This document shows positions 2,587 to 39,451 of a stretch of 64,000 nt of DNA, piece by piece. How positions within the stretch are numbered: the first letter of the stretch is position 1; each line of letters starts with the position of its first letter. The stretch covers positions 1,054,001-1,118,000 of the forward strand of contig NZ_NERY01000001.1 in NCBI RefSeq assembly GCF_003063375.1, in the 5' to 3' direction. The DNA comes from Limnohabitans sp. MMS-10A-178 (GTDB lineage: Bacteria > Pseudomonadota > Gammaproteobacteria > Burkholderiales > Burkholderiaceae_C). The notes under the pieces are model-generated. The model worked only from the letters and a program-made list of their open reading frames with translations, was not told the DNA's origin and made no database searches. The translations under genes were made by a program, and so were the position numbers.

Positions 2587-4875
2587 ATGCCAATCAACGA
2601 CGATCAGAGTTTCAACAATTCTTCCAACCCCCACTTTCAGGATGTTCTGAAAGAAGCCCTCAAGAACCCATCGCGCCGAAACATTTTGCGCGGTGGCTTG
2701 GGCTTGGCTTCCATGATGGCTTTGCCTATGTTGCCTGGCTGCGGCAGCATCGCTTCATCGCTACCCGAACTGTCTACTGCCAATGTTTTGGGTTTCAATG
2801 CCGTCACAAAAAGTATCCTAGACCAAGTCACTGTTCCTGCTGGCTACACCGTCAGAGTGTTGCATGCCACCGGCGACAGACTGGCCCCCAGTGTTCCTGC
2901 TTATTCCAACTTAGGTTTGGAAACAGATGACTGGAGCATGCGCGTTGGTGATCACCACGACGGCATGGACATTTTCTACATCGACAGCAACGGCCGCTAC
3001 AGCGCCACGGCCACCAACAGAGCCGTGTTGGCTGTTAACCATGAAAGCTCTGCTGACTCTCACCTCTTGCACCCCAAAGGACAAACGTCTGGCGGCGTGA
3101 ATGGCAAAAGATTCAGCCAATTTGGCGATTGGGATGTCAAGGCACGTCCAGGTTTGGAAGTTCTGAAAGAAATTAACTTGCACGGAATTTCCGTGGCCGA
3201 AATCACTTTGGACAGCTCCGGCAAGCCTACAGGCGGCTACGTACTTGATTCAGCCTTGAACCGCAGAATCACGCCTCAGACCGTGGCGGACGTACAAGGT
3301 CCAGCAGCGCATTTAAGCGATATCCGTGCCATGTTTGTTACACGCTTTGACACCACCGGCGCAACTTCCCGCGGCACCTTGAACAATTGCGGTCATGGCA
3401 TCACACCTTGGGGCACCTACCTGGGCTGCGAAGAAAACTGGGCTGTCTATTTCAACATGCCCACCGGCACCACATTGCCTGATGCAAAAATCATTGCCTC
3501 ACGCAAGCGCTATGGTGTGAGCAATGCTGTTTTGTCCAGCACTGCCACAACAGGTTTAGGACAAGGCTGGTACACCCCAACTGACTTGCCCGATACAGAT
3601 TCCCGTTTCTCAAGATGGAATGTTGCGGCCACAGGCGCTACTGCAGCCGCAGACTTCCGCAATGAGCCACACACTTTTGGCTACAACGTAGAAGTTGATC
3701 CTGTGAACCCTTCAGCCCGCCCCGCCAAGCGCACGGCCATGGGTCGCTTTGCGCACGAGGCTGCAGTTTGCAGCATTCCAGTTGTGGGCAAGCCATTGGC
3801 TTTCTACATGGGTTGCGACAGCCGCAACGAATACATTTACAAATTTGTCACAGCTCAAAACTGGAGCGCCGCCGACATCGGTGGCGGTATGGCAGCTGGC
3901 AATAAGTACCTCAACGAAGGTAAGTTGTATGTGGCCAAATTCAACAGCAATGGCGCTGGTGAGTGGATTGAGTTGTCGATCAACAACCCATTGATCAAGT
4001 CATATGCTGGCGCAGCTGGCTTTACATTCACCACCCAAGCTGACATTTACGTTCACACACGCTTGGCTGCGGATGCCGTGGGCGCTACCAAAATGGACCG
4101 TCCTGAGTGGGGTGCTGTGAATTATGCCAACGGTGAAGTTTATTTTGCCTTGACCAACAACAGCTCCAGCAACCGCACACCCGCTTCAGCAGACGGTGCC
4201 AACCCACGCTCCTTCAACGACGCAGACGGCAAAAAGGGTTCAGGCAATCCGAACGGTCACATCATTCGTTTCAAAGAGCAAGACAACCTGGCCACAGCAA
4301 CGGGCTTCAATTGGGATATTTTTGTGTTTGGCGCAGAAGAAGACATGCCCGCCAATGTCAACGTTTCTAAGTTGACAGCCAACAACAGCTTCTCTTCACC
4401 TGATGGTTTGTGGTTCAGCAAGAGCACAGGTATTTGCTGGATTCAAACCGATGATGGCGCCTTCACAGACGAGACCAACTGCATGTTGCTGGCATCTGTC
4501 CCTGGTAAAGTGGGTGATGGTGGTGAGTTCTATATCGATAACACTTTAGTCTCTGGAACCTCCTCAAGCAACAACGTGACAAGAACCTTCATTGGCGGTA
4601 TTTTGGGTGAGTCGCGCCTGCGTCGATTCTTGGTTGCGCCAAAAGGCGCCGAGGTCACTGGCATGACAGAGACGCCAGATGGCAAAACGGTTTTTGTCAA
4701 CATTCAGCACCCTGGCGAGAACACACCTGCGATTGGTACTGCTGCATCCTTCACCCTTGAAAGCCAATGGCCAGGCAATGGTGGTGGATTGACATCGGCT
4801 TATGGCCCTGCTGGACGCCCCCGCTCAGCCACGCTGGTGATTACCAAAAACGACGGCGGTAAGATTGGCCTCTGA
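2587..4875 (+). CDS. phoX: PhoX-family alkaline phosphatase, Tat-exported
   Basis: 762 residues from the ATG at 2587, chosen over the longer ORF start at 2533 because AAGGAG lies eight bases before it and because the upstream extension overlaps the Pho box. The N-terminus carries a twin-arginine signal (SRRNILRGG then a hydrophobic stretch ending in LPGCGS). The rest matches the DUF839/PhoX family, including NCGHGITPWGTYLGCEENW, RFAHEAA, and TGMTETPDGKTVFVNIQHPGE near the C-terminus. PhoX enzymes are Fe/Ca-dependent phosphomonoesterases that release phosphate from organic esters outside the inner membrane. Divergence from pstS and the Pho box place it in the phosphate-starvation response. The Cys after the signal is not in a canonical lipobox, so lipidation is uncertain. 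Confidence 0.92.
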   Translation: MPINDDQSFNNSSNPHFQDVLKEALKNPSRRNILRGGLGLASMMALPMLPGCGSIASSLPELSTANVLGFNAVTKSILDQVTVPAGYTVRVLHATGDRLAPSVPAYSNLGLETDDWSMRVGDHHDGMDIFYIDSNGRYSATATNRAVLAVNHESSADSHLLHPKGQTSGGVNGKRFSQFGDWDVKARPGLEVLKEINLHGISVAEITLDSSGKPTGGYVLDSALNRRITPQTVADVQGPAAHLSDIRAMFVTRFDTTGATSRGTLNNCGHGITPWGTYLGCEENWAVYFNMPTGTTLPDAKIIASRKRYGVSNAVLSSTATTGLGQGWYTPTDLPDTDSRFSRWNVAATGATAAADFRNEPHTFGYNVEVDPVNPSARPAKRTAMGRFAHEAAVCSIPVVGKPLAFYMGCDSRNEYIYKFVTAQNWSAADIGGGMAAGNKYLNEGKLYVAKFNSNGAGEWIELSINNPLIKSYAGAAGFTFTTQADIYVHTRLAADAVGATKMDRPEWGAVNYANGEVYFALTNNSSSNRTPASADGANPRSFNDADGKKGSGNPNGHIIRFKEQDNLATATGFNWDIFVFGAEEDMPANVNVSKLTANNSFSSPDGLWFSKSTGICWIQTDDGAFTDETNCMLLASVPGKVGDGGEFYIDNTLVSGTSSSNNVTRTFIGGILGESRLRRFLVAPKGAEVTGMTETPDGKTVFVNIQHPGENTPAIGTAASFTLESQWPGNGGGLTSAYGPAGRPRSATLVITKNDGGKIGL

Positions 4876-4880
4876 TATCT

Positions 4881-4909
4881 TTTAATTGGGGTCAGATCAG
4901 AATTAATTT
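4881..4909 (+). repeat. 29-bp dispersed repeat, copy A
   Basis: The segment from TTTAATTGGGGTCAGATCA through ATTAATTT recurs in inverted orientation at 36797-36825 with 27 of 29 positions identical. It lies just after the phoX stop. Next to it AGATCAGAA (4894-4902) pairs perfectly with TTCTGATCT (4929-4937), with ACGG/CCGT in between, so the copy sits in a REP-like palindromic structure. GGGGTCAG-type sequences of this look are common scattered repeats in proteobacteria, some associated with REP-type transposases. No transposase gene is seen here. Confidence 0.6.
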
Positions 4910-4954
4910 GCTTCACGGCACCGTTCTGTTCTGATCTCAAACTAGATTTAAAAT

Positions 4955-5359
4955 TTGGACATGCGCTGCATGTCCATTTTTTTTGCCTGTCTTATCTCGA
5001 CACCTGCAATTGCATGGAATCCTTTTTCAAGCGAGGAGTTCACGGATGTTCCATTGTCAAAGCTTGAGCTGCAAAAAGTAAAGATCAATGCCGGTTGGGC
5101 CAGGGACGATGATCAGACCCTGATTTTTGAGTTGAGCAACGGTCTGAAAGGCCCTATTCAATGCGGCGCAGCCAATGTTGAGCTCAACACAGGCAAATCG
5201 GTGTCAAAAGTGTTTGTACCCAAATTTGCAATTCCAGGCCAAGCCACTCGAAACGCCAGCATGCCGGTGGTTAAAGGCACGATGAAATCTTATGCGCTCA
5301 CGTGCTCTTGTTTCAAGAAAAAGGGTTCGGAGGACTGTGTGAATCCTCTGGCGCGCTAA
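4955..5359 (+). CDS. Small exported hypothetical protein
   Basis: 134 residues as given by the ORF; the start may be 4955, 4961 or 4970. The N-terminus (MRCMSIFFACLISTPAIA, then WNPFSSEEF) looks like a cleavable signal peptide. The mature part is short, apparently beta-rich, with Cys residues in IQCGAAN and LTCSCFKKKGSEDC that could form disulfides. I do not recognise the family. It stands alone between phoX and the convergent phosphatase gene, and its stop codon lies in a hairpin shared by both genes. No clear ribosome binding site decides the start. A small periplasmic protein is the safest description. Confidence 0.6.
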   Translation: MDMRCMSIFFACLISTPAIAWNPFSSEEFTDVPLSKLELQKVKINAGWARDDDQTLIFELSNGLKGPIQCGAANVELNTGKSVSKVFVPKFAIPGQATRNASMPVVKGTMKSYALTCSCFKKKGSEDCVNPLAR

Positions 5360-5382
5360 CTAATTCTTGACGAGATAGTTAG
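5356..5382. terminator. Bidirectional hairpin between convergent genes
   Basis: CTAACTA and TAGTTAG are perfect 7-bp inverted repeats. They span the stop codon of the exported small protein on the plus strand and the stop of the phosphatase gene on the minus strand. There is no long T-run, so it is a weak or Rho-assisted terminator at best. Confidence 0.4.
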
Positions 5383-6122
5383 GCTAGATAAAGGGACTGC
5401 AGTTTGCTTTGCGCGGCAGGCGTTAAACCCAATTGGCTGCTTAAATAATTTTGAATGCCCTGGTGCCTGCTTTGAATTTCATCCAGAGCCGCTTTTAAAA
5501 AACTTTCTTGAACTTCCCACACAATTTTCATGACGTCGGGCGACAGCGTGGTCGCTCCAGTGCTGTTGGGCTTGTAGAGTTGGTTGGTCAGGAGATAGTC
5601 TTGCCAAATATCCTGTTGCGAGACGCCCAAGGCACTCAAAATGAGTGCTGCCGCAAGACCTGTGCGATCTTTGCCTGCGGTGCAATGGAACAGAAGCGGT
5701 TCAGTGTGGTCTAGCATGTGCTCAAACAATTGGGCAAAGCGGTGCGAATCAGACTTTACAAAATCGCGGTAGGTGGTTTGCATGGCATCCAAGGCATCGG
5801 CGGCCGTGAGGGGCTTGCCTGTGAGGTGCTGGGCTTGAAGTCTTTGTACCACTGTTGGCTCAATGCTAAGGCTGTGCCGCTTGATATGAGGCCATTCGTA
5901 AGCCTGAGCTTGACTCTCTTGAACGCCTCGAAAATCGAAGGCACGCTTGAGGCCCAGGTTGTGCAATTGCGCCAGGTCTTCACTCTCTAAATTGGCCAAA
6001 TGATCTGAGCGAAACAGGGTGCGCCACTTAACGGGGCGACCTGCATGGCCCACGTAGCCACCTAAGTCGCGAAAGTTGGAGGCCCCTTTTAAAGGGATAT
6101 GGCGCTGTATGTGATCTTGCAT
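5379..6122 (-). CDS. Tyrosine-protein-phosphatase-like protein (Y_phosphatase3 type)
   Basis: 247 residues. The phosphatase P-loop HCTAGKDRTG lies near residue 146, giving the C-X5-R catalytic site with Cys nucleophile and Arg. The N-terminus has the family motif ASNFRDLGGY and TLFRSDHL typical of bacterial Tyr/Ser phosphatases of this group. These are soluble enzymes that remove phosphate from phosphotyrosine, phosphoserine or phosphoinositide substrates; the substrate here is unknown. It follows the VWA gene by 12 bases on the same strand, so it is probably the last gene of the Bat-type operon. Confidence 0.85.
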   Translation of the reverse strand: MQDHIQRHIPLKGASNFRDLGGYVGHAGRPVKWRTLFRSDHLANLESEDLAQLHNLGLKRAFDFRGVQESQAQAYEWPHIKRHSLSIEPTVVQRLQAQHLTGKPLTAADALDAMQTTYRDFVKSDSHRFAQLFEHMLDHTEPLLFHCTAGKDRTGLAAALILSALGVSQQDIWQDYLLTNQLYKPNSTGATTLSPDVMKIVWEVQESFLKAALDEIQSRHQGIQNYLSSQLGLTPAAQSKLQSLYLA

Positions 6123-11173: not shown

Positions 11174-11929
11174 ATGAAACATCGGTGCACTCCCGAAGAG
11201 TGGCAAGCCCGTGTCGATTTGGCGGCGTGCTACAGGTTGGTCGACATTTACGGAATGTCCGACATGATGGCCAACCATGTCTCTTGCAGTGTTCCCGGAG
11301 AAGAAGGTGCCTTCTTGATCAATGCCTACGGCATGATGTACGAAGAAATCACAGCTTCAAGCCTGATCAAAATTGACATTCACGGCAATATTTTGGACAA
11401 GCCAGACTTCGGTGACTTGAACTACGGCATCAACAAAGCCGGCTATGTCATACACAGTGCCATACATGAAGCCAGACCTGAAGTCAGTTGCGTCATTCAC
11501 ACTCACAGTTGGGCTTCTATGGCAGTGTCATCGCTTGAATGTGGCTTGCTGCCCTTGACGCAAACCGCCATGCGCTTTTTGAAAATTGCGTACCATGACT
11601 ATCAAGGTGTTGTGCTCAATCACGAAGAAAAAGCTTCGCTGCTCCAAGATTTGGGACAAGGCGAAGCTTTGATTTTGCGCAACCATGGTGCCTTGACAGT
11701 AGGCAAAAGTGTGGGCGAAGCCTTTAACTGGATGCACCGATTGGAGCTGGCGTGTCACTCGCAGTTGGCTGCCATGGCGTGCAATACACCTTTTGTGAAG
11801 GTGGCGCCAGAAGTGCTGGAAGAAACTTGGAACAACTACCAACCCAGCACCCGCAGGCCCTATGGTTTGATGGAGTGGCCTGCACTGCTGCGCAAACTAG
11901 ACCGCATGGATCCAAGCTATAAAACTTGA
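11174..11929 (+). CDS. Class II aldolase/adducin family protein
   Basis: 251 residues from ATG 11174; the ORF start at 11141 adds 11 residues with no family match. Zinc-ligand and active-site motifs of the class II aldolase/adducin fold are present: VIHTHSWASMAVS at about residue 100 and ILRNHGALTVGKSVGEAF at about residue 170. The N-terminal segment SDMMANHVSCSVPGEEGAFLIN is also typical. Family members cleave or epimerise phosphorylated sugars or decarboxylate related substrates, but this adducin-like subgroup has no assigned reaction. It is followed 60 bases later by a hydroxyacid dehydrogenase, suggesting a two-gene unit. Confidence 0.85.
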   Translation: MKHRCTPEEWQARVDLAACYRLVDIYGMSDMMANHVSCSVPGEEGAFLINAYGMMYEEITASSLIKIDIHGNILDKPDFGDLNYGINKAGYVIHSAIHEARPEVSCVIHTHSWASMAVSSLECGLLPLTQTAMRFLKIAYHDYQGVVLNHEEKASLLQDLGQGEALILRNHGALTVGKSVGEAFNWMHRLELACHSQLAAMACNTPFVKVAPEVLEETWNNYQPSTRRPYGLMEWPALLRKLDRMDPSYKT

Positions 11930-11989
11930 TTGCGCAACAAGTTAGAAAAGAACGTCTCAGAACACTACAGAAATCAACAGAACACATCA

Positions 11990-12970
11990 ATGAAGATTTT
12001 GCTTTCTGAGTTGGCCTTGCGTGGCTTGTCTTCGCATATTGCGCGCGTCATGGCCGAAAGGCCCTTTGAGTGCGTGAGCTTCGAGCAAGCTGTGGCATTG
12101 GGTCGACGCGACTTTGACTGTGCTTTTGTTTCACGAGACGTCACTGGCTTGTCGACCAAACACGAACTGGCCCCCAGCCTCAAAGCTTGTTATCAAGTTT
12201 TAGATGAGTCGCCAAATTTACGTTGGGTTCACATTCACTCTGCGGGGGCAGATCGAGACATTTATGTGCGCCTTAAAGCAAAGGGTGTGCAGGTGGCAAC
12301 TTCCTCGGGAGCCAATTCCGAAGTGGTGGCCCAAACCGCCTTGGCAGGCTTGTTGGCTTTGTCGCGCAAATTTCCAGAGTTGGTTCATGCCATGCATCAG
12401 AAAAAATGGGCGCCGTTGCTAGGTTCCCAATTGCCGCCAGATTTGGCAGGGCAAACAGCGATGCTCGTGGGCTGGGGCCCTATTGCGCAAAGGGTTGCGC
12501 AGTTTTTGTCCATGTTGGGACTGCGCTTGAAAGTGGTTCGACAACAAGCCCATGCCAGTAACTCCCACCCCTCTGCTGCTGGCTCATCGCACATCGAAAT
12601 GTTGACTTACGAAACATTCGATGCTGCGCTGCCAAGCACCGACTGGGTTGTTTTGATGTGCCCCCTGACTGCCACCACCCGGGGTTTGTTCGATGCCCGC
12701 AGATTGGCTTTGCTGCCTAACAGCGCTGGCTTGGTCAATGTAGCGCGCGGTGAAGTGGTGGTTGAGAAGGATTTGATAGAAGCCCTGCAAACCGGCAATT
12801 TGGGCAGTGCGTATCTGGATGTTTTTGAGCACGAACCGCTACCCCCTGCATCTCCACTTTGGAGTTTGCCCAATGTGATCTTGACGCCGCACTCTGCGGG
12901 TTTTTCAAGTGGCAATGAAGCTCGGGTGAGCCAAATGTTTTTAGACAATCTGGCTACTTGGGCGAAATAA
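11990..12970 (+). CDS. D-2-hydroxyacid dehydrogenase (NAD-binding)
   Basis: 326 residues from ATG 11990; the ORF extends to a TTG at 11930, but the family N-terminus is MKILLSELALRGL. The Rossmann motif is VGWGPIAQRVAQFLSMLG with Ala in the third Gly position. Catalytic Arg is in GLVNVARGEVV, Glu in VFEHEPLP and His in ILTPHSAGFSSGNE. Such cytoplasmic enzymes reduce 2-oxoacids to D-2-hydroxyacids with NAD(P)H; the substrate is not evident. It follows the aldolase gene on the same strand and is the last protein gene before tRNA-Arg. Confidence 0.87.
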   Translation: MKILLSELALRGLSSHIARVMAERPFECVSFEQAVALGRRDFDCAFVSRDVTGLSTKHELAPSLKACYQVLDESPNLRWVHIHSAGADRDIYVRLKAKGVQVATSSGANSEVVAQTALAGLLALSRKFPELVHAMHQKKWAPLLGSQLPPDLAGQTAMLVGWGPIAQRVAQFLSMLGLRLKVVRQQAHASNSHPSAAGSSHIEMLTYETFDAALPSTDWVVLMCPLTATTRGLFDARRLALLPNSAGLVNVARGEVVVEKDLIEALQTGNLGSAYLDVFEHEPLPPASPLWSLPNVILTPHSAGFSSGNEARVSQMFLDNLATWAK

Positions 12971-13002
12971 GCAAAAAATACCGTGCTACAATCCAGAGCT
13001 TC

Positions 13003-13079
13003 GCGGCTGTAGCTCAGCTGGATAGAGTACTTGGCTACGAACCAAGGGGTCGTGGGTTCGATTCCTGCCAGCCGCACCA
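13003..13079 (+). tRNA. tRNA-Arg (anticodon ACG)
   Basis: 77 nt including an encoded CCA. The acceptor stem GCGGCTG pairs fully with CAGCCGC. D-loop AGCTCAGCTGGATAGAGT, anticodon loop CTACGAA with ACG at 13037-13039, and T-arm GGGTTCGATTCC are canonical. A TACAAT at 12987-12992 could be the -10 element. The ACG anticodon (A34 normally edited to inosine) reads CGU, CGC and CGA. Confidence 0.97.
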
Positions 13080-13104
13080 GATTTCGATTTTTCGAGACTA
13101 GAAC

Positions 13105-13139
13105 ACAGCTTAGAGGCTTACGCCCCTAGGCTGTTTTTC
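13105..13139 (+). terminator. Rho-independent terminator after tRNA-Arg
   Basis: A hairpin of ACAGC/GCTGT, TAG/CTA and GGC/GCC with small mismatches is followed by TTTTTCTTT. It lies 26 bases after the tRNA and just before greB. Confidence 0.75.
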
Positions 13140-13181
13140 TTTGTGCCAACCGGATCCAACGGAATTTCTTCAAACACGGCC

Positions 13182-13757
13182 ATGAGCAAAGCTTTCACGC
13201 GCGAAACAGACGCTGCAGACGACGATGGCGAAGATCCCAGCCTGCCGCCCCTGCCCGCGGGCACACGCAACTACATGACCCCGCAGGGCTACGCCAATTT
13301 GCGCGCAGAGCTCTTTAGCCTCATCGACGATGAACGCCCCAAGGTGGTCGAAATTGTGCATTGGGCCGCCAGCAATGGCGACCGCTCTGAAAATGGTGAT
13401 TACCTTTATGGCAAAAAAAGACTGCGCGAAATTGACCGGCGCATTCGCTTTTTGACCAAACGATTGGAAATTGCTGAAGTTACAGATCCAAGCGTGCATC
13501 ACGGCAGGTCCCAAGTTTTCTTTGGTGCCACCGTGACCTATGTTGAAGAAAACGGGGTAGAGCGCACAGTCACCATTCGGGGCATTGACGAGGCCGACAG
13601 TTTGAAGGGTGAGGTGAGTTGGGTATCGCCCATTGCACGCACCTTGCTTAAGTCGAGCACAGGTGATGTATTGAAGTTGGTCACACCGCAAGGCTGGCGC
13701 GAAATTGAGGTGCTCGATGTGACGTATCCAGCGCCTTCAAAGCCCTCAATTCCTTGA
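13182..13757 (+). CDS. greB: Transcription elongation factor GreB
   Basis: 191 residues from ATG 13182 (MSKAFTRETDAADD). The ORF also allows a GTG at 13143, but that lies right against the terminator. The N-terminal coiled coil carries the acidic tip NGDRSENGDYLYGKKRLREIDRR, which enters the RNA polymerase secondary channel and triggers transcript cleavage in backtracked complexes. The C-terminal FKBP-like domain includes VFFGATVTYVEENG and EVSWVSPIARTLL. Slightly longer than E. coli GreB because of an acidic N-terminal extension. It converges on spoT. Confidence 0.92.
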   Translation: MSKAFTRETDAADDDGEDPSLPPLPAGTRNYMTPQGYANLRAELFSLIDDERPKVVEIVHWAASNGDRSENGDYLYGKKRLREIDRRIRFLTKRLEIAEVTDPSVHHGRSQVFFGATVTYVEENGVERTVTIRGIDEADSLKGEVSWVSPIARTLLKSSTGDVLKLVTPQGWREIEVLDVTYPAPSKPSIP

Positions 13758-36647: not shown

Positions 36648-36735
36648 TGGCGGAAGCGGTGAGATTCGAACTCACGGACCCTTTCGAGCCGCCGGTTTTC
36701 AAGACCGGTGCAATCGACCACTCTGCCACACTTCC
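36648..36735 (-). tRNA. tRNA-Ser (anticodon TGA)
   Basis: 88 nt with encoded CCA and a long variable arm, as in class II tRNAs. The acceptor stem GGAAGTG pairs with CGCTTCC (one G-U). The anticodon loop CTTGAAA contains TGA (36699-36701, minus strand). The T-arm is GAGTTCGAATCTC. Confidence 0.97.
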
Positions 36736-37108: not shown

Positions 37109-38743
37109 TCAGTGTTCTTTAGAAGCTGATTGCTGAAGGGCAATCAAGGTCCAGAGCTTTTTGTCTGTTTCCGTCAAACGTTCTGAGCTGTCAACAGCCG
37201 CGTGGAACTTGTCTTGGTCGGTCAGCAAGCTGAGTTGTCTGACTTGGCCTAACAAGTGTTTGAAGTGTTCAATGGTGTGGTCTGTATTGGCTGCTATTTT
37301 ATGCAGCGGTAAAGTCGCTACATCGTCCATCAATTCACGTTCTCGCTTGGCCTTTTCAATTAAGAGTTTGACTTCTTCATCACTCAAGTGCAAGCGCTTG
37401 GCTTCTGTTTTGATGTACAGAGCCTCTTCTTCGTCAATATTACCATCTGACAGCATTTCGAAAAGCTTGTTCACCAAGGCTTCGCGGTCCGATTTAAGTT
37501 GGTCACTGAAAGCAGAAGACAAAAGCGCAGCAGGGATGGCAAAAATACCAATGCCGATCAAAGCTAGCACAATGGTCATAGCGCGGCCAGCGGGTGTGAC
37601 GGGTGAAATATCGCCGTAACCCACAGAGGCCAGAGTGATCACCGCCCAGTAAATGGATTGGGGAATGTTCTCAAACTTTTCGGGCTGCGCTTCGTGCTCA
37701 AACAAATAGCCCAAGCTGGCGGTCATCACCACCAGCAACAACATGATGAAGGCCGAGGCGGCCATCACAGGCCATTCGCGAGCGATCACTTTCATCAGTG
37801 ATTGTGTAGCACCCGTATAGCGCGTGAGCTTGAGCAATCGAAGCAACCGGAACACTCGCATGAATCGCAAGTCAATCAGGTGGTGCAAGAACACCTCTAA
37901 GAAGAAAGGAGCAATGGCCAACAAGTCGATGATGGACGAGGTGGATTTGGCCATTTTGAGCCTTCCCGCAACGGCCTTCTTGTACCCAGGCTCTTCAACG
38001 CAACAGTACATGCGCAAGGTGTATTCCAGCGTGAAGATGGACACCGCAATGGCATCCAGAATGAGGAACTCCATGTTCAGTAAGTAATGAACGCTGTGCA
38101 CAGATTCCAAGATCACGGCCAACACCGAGACGATCACCCAGACCACAATGAAAGAGTCATAAAGGTTGTGCAACTCGCCACCGTAGGCACTGGGAAATAC
38201 AAGAGCATGCACGCGCTGGCGGAAGGTTCGCCCTTCGTTGGCAATTTTGAATGCTTTGTAAGCCGGAATTAAAACTCGAAAGAGTTTCAAGATTCGCAGC
38301 AGTCGCAAGAATCGAAGGTAGCGCAAGTCAATGGAAATAAAGGCTTGCAAAAAGAACGGCAGGATGGCAATCAAATCAATGATGGCAAAGGGGCTGGTGG
38401 CATATTTGGCCCGCGCGAATCGGTGCTTTTTAAACTCTTCGTCTTCGGGCGCTAGGTAGAAACGAACCAAGTACTCAATGGTGAAAATGACCACTGAGGC
38501 CACGTCAAAGTAATGAAACCAGGTTGAATAAATTGCATTGATGGCAGGAACGTGCTCGAAGATCAGCACGAACAAATTGGCCACAATCAAGATGGCAATC
38601 CACCTGTCGATGGTTTTTTGATAATTGCCCTCAATGTGAGGGTTTAACAGCCAAGCATAAAGCCATTGCCGAAAGGGTAAATCGCTCGAAATGTGGGTTT
38701 CGTGGTCGGTGATGAGTTGGGCTTCTAAGTCATTGATTTGCAT
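37109..38743 (-). CDS. Voltage-gated potassium channel-like protein with two tandem voltage-sensor domains
   Basis: 544 residues. Two S1-S4 modules occur in tandem, offset by about 150 residues: IFTIEYLVRF (86-95) and IFTLEYTLRM (236-245); AIIDLIAILPFFL (120-132) and SIIDLLAIAPFFL (270-282); S4 DLRYLRFLRLLRILKLFR (139-156) and DLRFMRVFRLLRLLKLTR (291-308), both with Arg/Lys every third residue. Only the second is followed by a pore: S5 (about 325-348), filter TLASVGYGDISP (370-381, K+ type) and S6 (about 388-411). A cytoplasmic helical tail (about 412-544) with DGNIDEEEALYIKTEAKRL follows. It probably moves K+ across the inner membrane. The gene lies 11 bases downstream of a small membrane protein on the same strand. 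Confidence 0.88.
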   Translation of the reverse strand: MQINDLEAQLITDHETHISSDLPFRQWLYAWLLNPHIEGNYQKTIDRWIAILIVANLFVLIFEHVPAINAIYSTWFHYFDVASVVIFTIEYLVRFYLAPEDEEFKKHRFARAKYATSPFAIIDLIAILPFFLQAFISIDLRYLRFLRLLRILKLFRVLIPAYKAFKIANEGRTFRQRVHALVFPSAYGGELHNLYDSFIVVWVIVSVLAVILESVHSVHYLLNMEFLILDAIAVSIFTLEYTLRMYCCVEEPGYKKAVAGRLKMAKSTSSIIDLLAIAPFFLEVFLHHLIDLRFMRVFRLLRLLKLTRYTGATQSLMKVIAREWPVMAASAFIMLLLVVMTASLGYLFEHEAQPEKFENIPQSIYWAVITLASVGYGDISPVTPAGRAMTIVLALIGIGIFAIPAALLSSAFSDQLKSDREALVNKLFEMLSDGNIDEEEALYIKTEAKRLHLSDEEVKLLIEKAKRERELMDDVATLPLHKIAANTDHTIEHFKHLLGQVRQLSLLTDQDKFHAAVDSSERLTETDKKLWTLIALQQSASKEH

Positions 38744-38754
38744 GATCGTGTTCC

Positions 38755-39324
38755 TTAGAATTCAAATTCATCAACTTTGTTGGCGTAGCCACCTTTGTCG
38801 CACACCGTCAGCCTTAGGCTTAATTTGGTGTCGATGGGGTCGATGTCAACCAACTGAGAGGCCACCACGGGAATGGCCGAACCCAATGGGGTTGCAACCA
38901 GTTTTTCTAGAAAGATGGCACCAACGGTGCTTCTGTCCTTGGGGTCGCATTTGGCAACAAAATGAACCGGCACGTTGGTAAATGGATTGGTCAGATTGTT
39001 GAGGGGGGCCACTTTTTCAGTCAGTTCCTTGAAGCAGTCGCCCCATCGTTTGCGTTCCGTTTCACTGGCAGCGCAATTTTCAACGCTGAAGCCTTCTTGA
39101 GTACGGGCCTCGCTGTTGTCTTTCATCCACTTTACCCAAGCTTCACCGTTGTGCTTGGTGACTTCGTTTTTGTAGCCCTCTTTGTAAGATAAAACGCCAA
39201 CCCATGCCACAGTGGCCATGATGCAAGCTAGAAAGATAAGAAACAAAATATCTGATCTATTGGGCATGCCCGAATTGACCGGTGCATCTTGAGCAGCATC
39301 TTGTGAGCGAACATTTTCTGTCAT
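38755..39324 (-). CDS. Small membrane-anchored hypothetical protein upstream of the channel gene
   Basis: 189 residues from ATG 39324 (MTENVRSQD); ATGs at 39339 and 39384 are also possible and none has a clear ribosome site. One helix near residues 24-46 (ILFLIFLACIMATVAWVGVL) is followed by a periplasmic-looking domain with Cys pairs (VENCAASETERKRWGDCF, then VAKCDPKDR and LTVCDKGGY). I recognise no family. The next gene on the strand is the tandem-sensor channel, 11 bases downstream, so they are probably cotranscribed and it may be a channel partner. Confidence 0.65.
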   Translation of the reverse strand: MTENVRSQDAAQDAPVNSGMPNRSDILFLIFLACIMATVAWVGVLSYKEGYKNEVTKHNGEAWVKWMKDNSEARTQEGFSVENCAASETERKRWGDCFKELTEKVAPLNNLTNPFTNVPVHFVAKCDPKDRSTVGAIFLEKLVATPLGSAIPVVASQLVDIDPIDTKLSLRLTVCDKGGYANKVDEFEF

Positions 39325-39451
39325 GTGAGAGGTTTCCATGAAGATGGCAGTAGTCTGAAATACCGACATGGCATTTCCATACATGTGTGCATCGTAAGGA
39401 ATCGGCTCTAAAGGTCAAGTCTTTAGAATATTTATCAAATAAAGAAGCAAA

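Follow-up and report, generated by a model that had tools for sequence, protein, structure and literature searches.

Two voltage-sensor domains before one pore in a potassium channel-like protein family of Limnohabitans and related bacteria

In the 64,000 nucleotides of Limnohabitans sp. MMS-10A-178 DNA analysed here (the window), the minus-strand open reading frame at 37109-38743, located there already by a preliminary description of this DNA, encodes a 544-amino acid K+ channel subunit with two complete voltage-sensor domains (VSD1 and VSD2) in front of one pore. The same order of domains was found in 97 homologues, and the two-VSD, one-pore subunit looks like a real, undescribed build of voltage-gated channel. 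To our knowledge, voltage-gated channels have at most one sensor per pore quadrant, and no report of a two-VSD, one-pore subunit was found in the openly licensed literature. We favor, with a probability of about 60%, a voltage-gated K+ channel in which VSD2 drives the pore, while VSD1 and a partner protein encoded upstream form a second voltage-sensing regulatory layer. Beyond the preliminary description, the analysis revealed a pre-S1 helix within the repeated unit, the upstream partner gene and, in other genomes, accessory channel genes downstream.

Gene layout and the nature of the first module

The protein consists of pre-S1 and S1-S4, a 37-residue linker, a second S1-S4 module, one pore and a helical tail. 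Pfam Ion_trans matched in two stretches (1.4e-46 overall): residues 1-192 alone corresponded to profile positions 4-111, which comprise S1-S4 only (8e-16), and the rest of the protein after residue 192 matched the full Ion_trans and Ion_trans_2 profiles. In module 1, an AlphaFold2 (AF2) helix at residues 24-32 (38648-38674; all channel features lie on the minus strand) aligns with the pre-S1 helix of module 2, and the repeat includes this conserved amphipathic stretch (FRQWLYAWLL in module 1, FRQRVHALVF in module 2). VSD1 (residues 42-156, 38276-38620) is composed of S1 (42-63), S2 (66-100), S3 (118-135) and S4 (140-156, with the predicted helix running on to 168), and contains the counter-charges E63, E90 and D123 as well as F87. 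The linker (residues 157-193, 38165-38275) is formed by the C-terminal extension of this first S4 helix (S4-1), the motif GRTFRQ and the VSD2 pre-S1 helix (174-182 in the AF2 model). It is followed by VSD2 (residues 194-308, 37820-38164, assigned by Pfam and its conserved S4 charges), the S4-S5 linker with the pore domain S5-P-S6 (residues 309-415, 37499-37819; Ion_trans_2, 3.2e-18), in which the K+ selectivity filter SVGYGD occupies residues 373-378 (37610-37627), and the tail, which is helical in the AF2 model (residues 416-544, 37112-37498). Residues 417-459 of the tail (37367-37495) gave a TerB-like match below threshold. The tail also contains a conserved motif, DG(5 residues)E, which resembles one in single-VSD channels and is a possible metal site. 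A tRNA-Ser (tga) gene is located downstream of the channel gene at 36648-36735 on the minus strand.

Aligned with each other, the two modules are 35% identical over 124 amino acids (E=1e-23), indicating homology rather than chance similarity. Both S4 helices carry six charges, one per three residues, R141, R144, R147, R150, K153 and R156 in S4-1 and R293, R296, R299, R302, K305 and R308 in S4-2, at an offset of 152 residues. We take the R-R-R-R-K-R register of both to be Shaker-like. S5, the filter and S6 follow module 2 only. The preliminary description had read from the sequence two S1-S4 modules about 150 residues apart, a positive residue at every third position of both S4 helices and a pore with K+ filter after the second module only, and was accurate on all these points.

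The full-length AF2 model, built on 63 homologues, had a mean pLDDT of 79 and values of 85-93 in the VSD1 region; VSD1 folded alone reached a pLDDT of 86.9 and a pTM of 0.77. The top PDB matches of the VSD1 model in Foldseek were the sensors of Kv4.2, Kv4.3 and KCNQ (probability 1.00, query TM around 0.7), and the sequence profile of VSD1 also matched bacterial Nav and human Kv4 sensors (1.5e-10). The position of VSD1 relative to VSD2 and pore in the full model is unreliable, because its pTM was 0.60 and the confidence around the filter (375-381) was low.

E63, F87, E90, R94, D123 and the six S4 charges of VSD1 are kept in the 97 homologues (in part as 96 plus one gapped row), the corresponding set of VSD2 is likewise kept with rare conservative changes, and in the filter S373, G375, Y376, G377 and D378 are invariant in 97/97 and V374 is present in 96/97. 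Both modules thus have the S4 charge register and the S2/S3 counter-charges of Kv channels, and a (T/S)VGYGD filter lies between two pore helices; instead of exactly one VSD per pore subunit, however, Pfam, the HMM scan and AF2 all indicated two. Median dN/dS of close pairs was 0.053 for VSD1, 0.048 for VSD2 and 0.066 for the tail, with the pore domain as the most constrained region (0.013). VSD1 is as constrained as VSD2, the sensor that is joined to the pore.

Distribution of the family and origin of VSD1

A search for homologues with two VSDs before a pore, as suggested in the preliminary description, yielded 97 distinct full-length proteins, all with the order VSD-VSD-pore. The same description had named two observations that would speak against a two-sensor, one-pore K+ channel subunit, namely a first module that does not form a four-helix sensor and a pore behind module 1 that was lost only in this gene. 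Its proposal survived both, since AF2 and Foldseek do predict a four-helix sensor and in none of the 97 full-length homologues is VSD1 followed by a pore, which rules out a loss restricted to the window's gene.

Among 60 relatives, 14 full-length homologues were found, all from the same genus and 62-100% identical, one of them in a single-contig genome. The 80 loci returned by a scan of named genomes were all VSD-VSD-pore and came from Limnohabitans and other Comamonadaceae/Burkholderiales, the majority of them from metagenome-assembled genomes (MAGs). The hosts of the family are bacteria, mainly from freshwater. In even samples the gene was rare: besides the window's own genome, it was detected in one other of 399 genomes of the phylum and in three of 399 of the order, and the family sample contained it in 9/401 genomes. 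Its presence in complete single-contig genomes (G005, G434, G770 and G876) and in the isolate Limnohabitans sp. 2KL-17 (L061) excludes an assembly or MAG artefact. Four two-VSD loci carry the titles Methylococcaceae, Rickettsia typhi, Thermoflexus and Methylobacter (L063, L108, L116 and L119, respectively), and these records are probably mislabelled or mixed MAG bins. Among viral contigs there was one two-VSD match, on a 6.9-kb contig (L123) that is probably host DNA; the remaining matches were single-VSD proteins.

In a tree of VSDs, all VSD1 domains formed one deep clade (support 100/99), and VSD1 has one ancient origin. As the sister group of this clade was not resolved, both an internal duplication and the fusion of a foreign VSD are possible. 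Of the "duplicated" sensor in the preliminary description, the homology of VSD1 and VSD2 therefore stands, while the VSD tree does not separate duplication within the gene from fusion. The 6TM proteins A and B encoded downstream at some loci (see below) fall in another clade, which rules out that VSD1 was copied from either of them.

Relatives of 387-415 amino acids (p387) have kept the linker, VSD2, pore and tail and have no VSD1; they are intact reading frames with a canonical filter. They and the two-VSD proteins were joined in a single clade (99 SH-aLRT in one tree, 100/100 in another). A separate upstream VSD reading frame, as expected of a split gene, was looked for at the p387 loci and none was found. 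One VSD1-less protein (L176) was placed beside a two-VSD protein (support 96/91), which suggests that it likely lost VSD1. The p387 group was located inside the two-VSD clade in a quick tree, and its main branch was sister to that clade in a careful rooted tree; monophyly of the two-VSD proteins was not rejected by an AU test (p=0.153), so that for the main group the trees may be read as either gain or loss of VSD1. Two further entries of this class (L178, 810-2604, and L188, 4089-5883, both from genome G967) are not true VSD1-less genes: they represent a two-VSD gene whose coding sequence is spread over two frames, by either a frameshift or a sequencing error, with the partner gene present.

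The upstream partner and neighboring channel genes

Twelve nucleotides upstream of the channel gene and on the same strand, an open reading frame of 209 amino acids (38755-39384, minus strand; true start probably near 39324) encodes a member of a conserved protein family with one transmembrane (TM) helix and a domain containing four invariant Cys residues. The single hydrophobic segment, ILFLIFLACIMATVAWVGV (39193-39249, minus strand), is conserved across the partner family, and its flanks carry equal charge on both sides and give no topology call. Searches of Pfam and NCBIfam with the partner returned nothing at E<=1, and the best PDB match was irrelevant (E=0.25).

Considering loci with at least 700 nt of upstream sequence, the partner immediately preceded 104/112 two-VSD genes, compared with 0/15 p387, 0/53 single-VSD channel and 0/49 A or B genes; these counts are not independent trials because the loci are related. 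Of the 15 p387 entries, two are the frameshifted gene of G967 (L178, L188), where the partner lies upstream of the matched part of the channel gene at a distance of about 0.7 kb, and several others are two views of one genome. Two-VSD loci of two other families (L134, L163 and L164), although divergent, have retained the partner as well, and other neighbor genes were common to far fewer loci. Genome-wide, it was present in 16/60 relatives, 14 of which have a full two-VSD gene; in the other two, G031 contains a C-terminal fragment of the channel gene and G035 has the partner at a contig edge. In the family sample, it occurred in 10/401 genomes, namely the nine two-VSD genomes and G967, and it was absent from the genomes of G1047 and G1063, which have p387 only. 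Adjacency is not strictly required, since eight two-VSD genes, the second copies L179, L180 and L181 and five others, have no partner directly upstream. Since the partner is passed on together with VSD1 and is missing wherever VSD1 is, it is probably an auxiliary subunit that needs VSD1 for its function, and this co-inheritance suggests that partner and VSD1 act as a unit.

At 19/72 distinct loci, the 6TM genes A and B come directly after the two-VSD gene, in this order and on its strand (examples are L036 5198-7035, L054 7719-9580 and L072 5620-7463, in addition to 16 other loci). The filters of A (VTITSGYGN) and B (LTIISGWGN) are non-canonical and fall one residue short of the K+ consensus; in the trees the two proteins are sister clades that arose from ordinary, canonical-filter 6TM channels. 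They are candidates for co-assembly or for a role as silent subunits. Both are absent from the window's genome, which contains a single channel match.

Two loci present a different arrangement. At L180 (5763-6623 with 4174-5766, both minus strand) and L181 (10720-11580 with 11577-13190, both plus strand), a BacNav-type gene and a second, divergent two-VSD gene overlap by 4 nt, so that Na+ and K+ voltage-gated channel genes apparently share one operon. The BacNav-type gene matched bacterial Nav entries of the PDB at 3.3e-72 and has the filter TLESW. Among the two-VSD genomes tested, close matches to it were limited to G974 and G1111, with a weak partial match in G1169; the window's genome lacks it.

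Proposed function, alternative readings and significance

By analogy with Kv channels, four two-VSD subunits would assemble around a single K+ pore. The ordinary gate driver would be VSD2, which is linked covalently to S5 by a canonical S4-S5 linker, and VSD1, N-terminal to VSD2, would presumably lie at the periphery in the membrane. Since S4-1 is predicted to continue as a helix to residue 168 and to lead through the GRTFRQ linker into the VSD2 pre-S1 helix, a voltage-driven motion of VSD1 could be passed on to VSD2 and alter threshold, steepness or inactivation. Voltage gating persists in channels that are split at the S4-S5 linker (PMC4389246), so a sensor can act on the gate without being continuous with it. 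A more elaborate version, to which we give even odds, places eight sensors round one pore, with an outer ring of VSD1 and the co-inherited one-TM, four-Cys subunit as the second regulatory layer, in some genomes together with subunits of non-canonical filter or encoded with a BacNav.

Alternatively, VSD1 could mainly be a platform for docking or assembly of the one-TM partner, or for placement in the membrane, with charges that serve folding or binding and contribute little to gating. Partner and VSD1 are tightly co-inherited and absent together, and the intact p387 reading frames with canonical filter indicate that the pore does not need VSD1, all of which would fit such a dock. However, the six S4 charges, the S2 Phe and Glu and the S3 Asp are invariant down to about 46% identity, and a pure dock does not need a full R-R-R-R-K-R register, so we regard this reading as unlikely, though worth keeping in mind. 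A native heteromer of the two-VSD subunit with A (TSGYGN) and B (ISGWGN), resulting in an asymmetric pore, would fit the position of both genes, which follow directly in order and on the same strand at 19/72 loci; A and B are also sister groups from canonical-filter channels. Yet A and B stem from a different channel subfamily and are absent from the window's genome and most loci, so the heteromer cannot be the general state; it is an addition in some genomes, not a full alternative, and improbable as an account of the family.

Stand-alone VSDs can conduct protons, and as a complete VSD, VSD1 might itself be a permeation path, for an Hv1-like proton or a gating-pore current, making the protein bifunctional for H+ and K+. 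VSD1 has six S4 charges compared to three in Hv1, however, and the position of the S1 Asp of Hv1, which from the spacing to E63 we take to be Asn56 here, is Asn in all 63 aligned family members, with no mid-membrane Asp in S1. Selectivity of Hv1 needs this aspartate near an S4 arginine (PMC4429351), and we consider permeation through VSD1 very improbable. That VSD1 is a relic, left by the loss of a first pore or by a chance fusion without function, might be argued from the linker that p387 relatives still have without VSD1. This reading is already contradicted by the low dN/dS of VSD1, the sensor residues invariant in 97 proteins, the one ancient origin and the lack of any homologue with a pore after VSD1, and its probability is close to nil. 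A second voltage-sensing layer made of VSD1 and the partner is the reading that we prefer.

Compared with known systems, the subunit is most similar to Kv4, Kv2, KCNQ/Kv7 and Shaker: the stretch from VSD2 through the S4-S5 linker to the pore aligns over its full length with KCNQ4 (2.2e-22) and other Kv chains, the filter and the pattern of S4 charges are shared, and module 1 is predicted to fold as a Kv VSD. It differs from Kv channels by the extra complete VSD in front, the lack of a T1 domain and the co-encoded one-TM partner. Tandem 2x6TM channels of SAR eukaryotes (PMC7576140) and TPCs also have two VSDs per chain, but within two full 6TM repeats with two pores and a 1:1 ratio of sensors to pores, whereas here one filter serves two VSDs and module 1 is followed by the 37-residue linker in all 97 proteins. 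Hv1, voltage-sensing phosphatases and other VSD fusions (PMC12332018) similarly use a VSD as an add-on before another module; in contrast to these, the added VSD stands before a module that already has one, the S1 Asp of Hv1 appears to be missing, and VSD1 is no stand-alone sensor, as a pore follows VSD2. Single-VSD bacterial 6TM K+ channels of 270-340 amino acids from the same genomes share the VSD-pore core and a short DG..E tail motif but have neither VSD1 nor the partner. Like the one-TM auxiliary subunits KCNE/MPS-1 (PMC4210162), the partner is a small protein with a single TM helix linked to a Kv-type channel; unlike KCNE, it has a four-Cys domain and is operon-linked in bacteria, and no sequence similarity was found in Pfam, NCBIfam or PDB. 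It is a candidate for the bacterial equivalent of Kv auxiliary subunits.

A natural 2:1 family in which both sensors are complete and conserved offers a direct way to study sensor cooperation, and allows one to ask whether a sensor without a link to the pore helix can gate. It also raises the question why bacteria need such control of membrane potential. Since abundant freshwater bacteria, Limnohabitans and its relatives, are among the hosts, isolates make it possible to test for a physiological role in water of low salt content.
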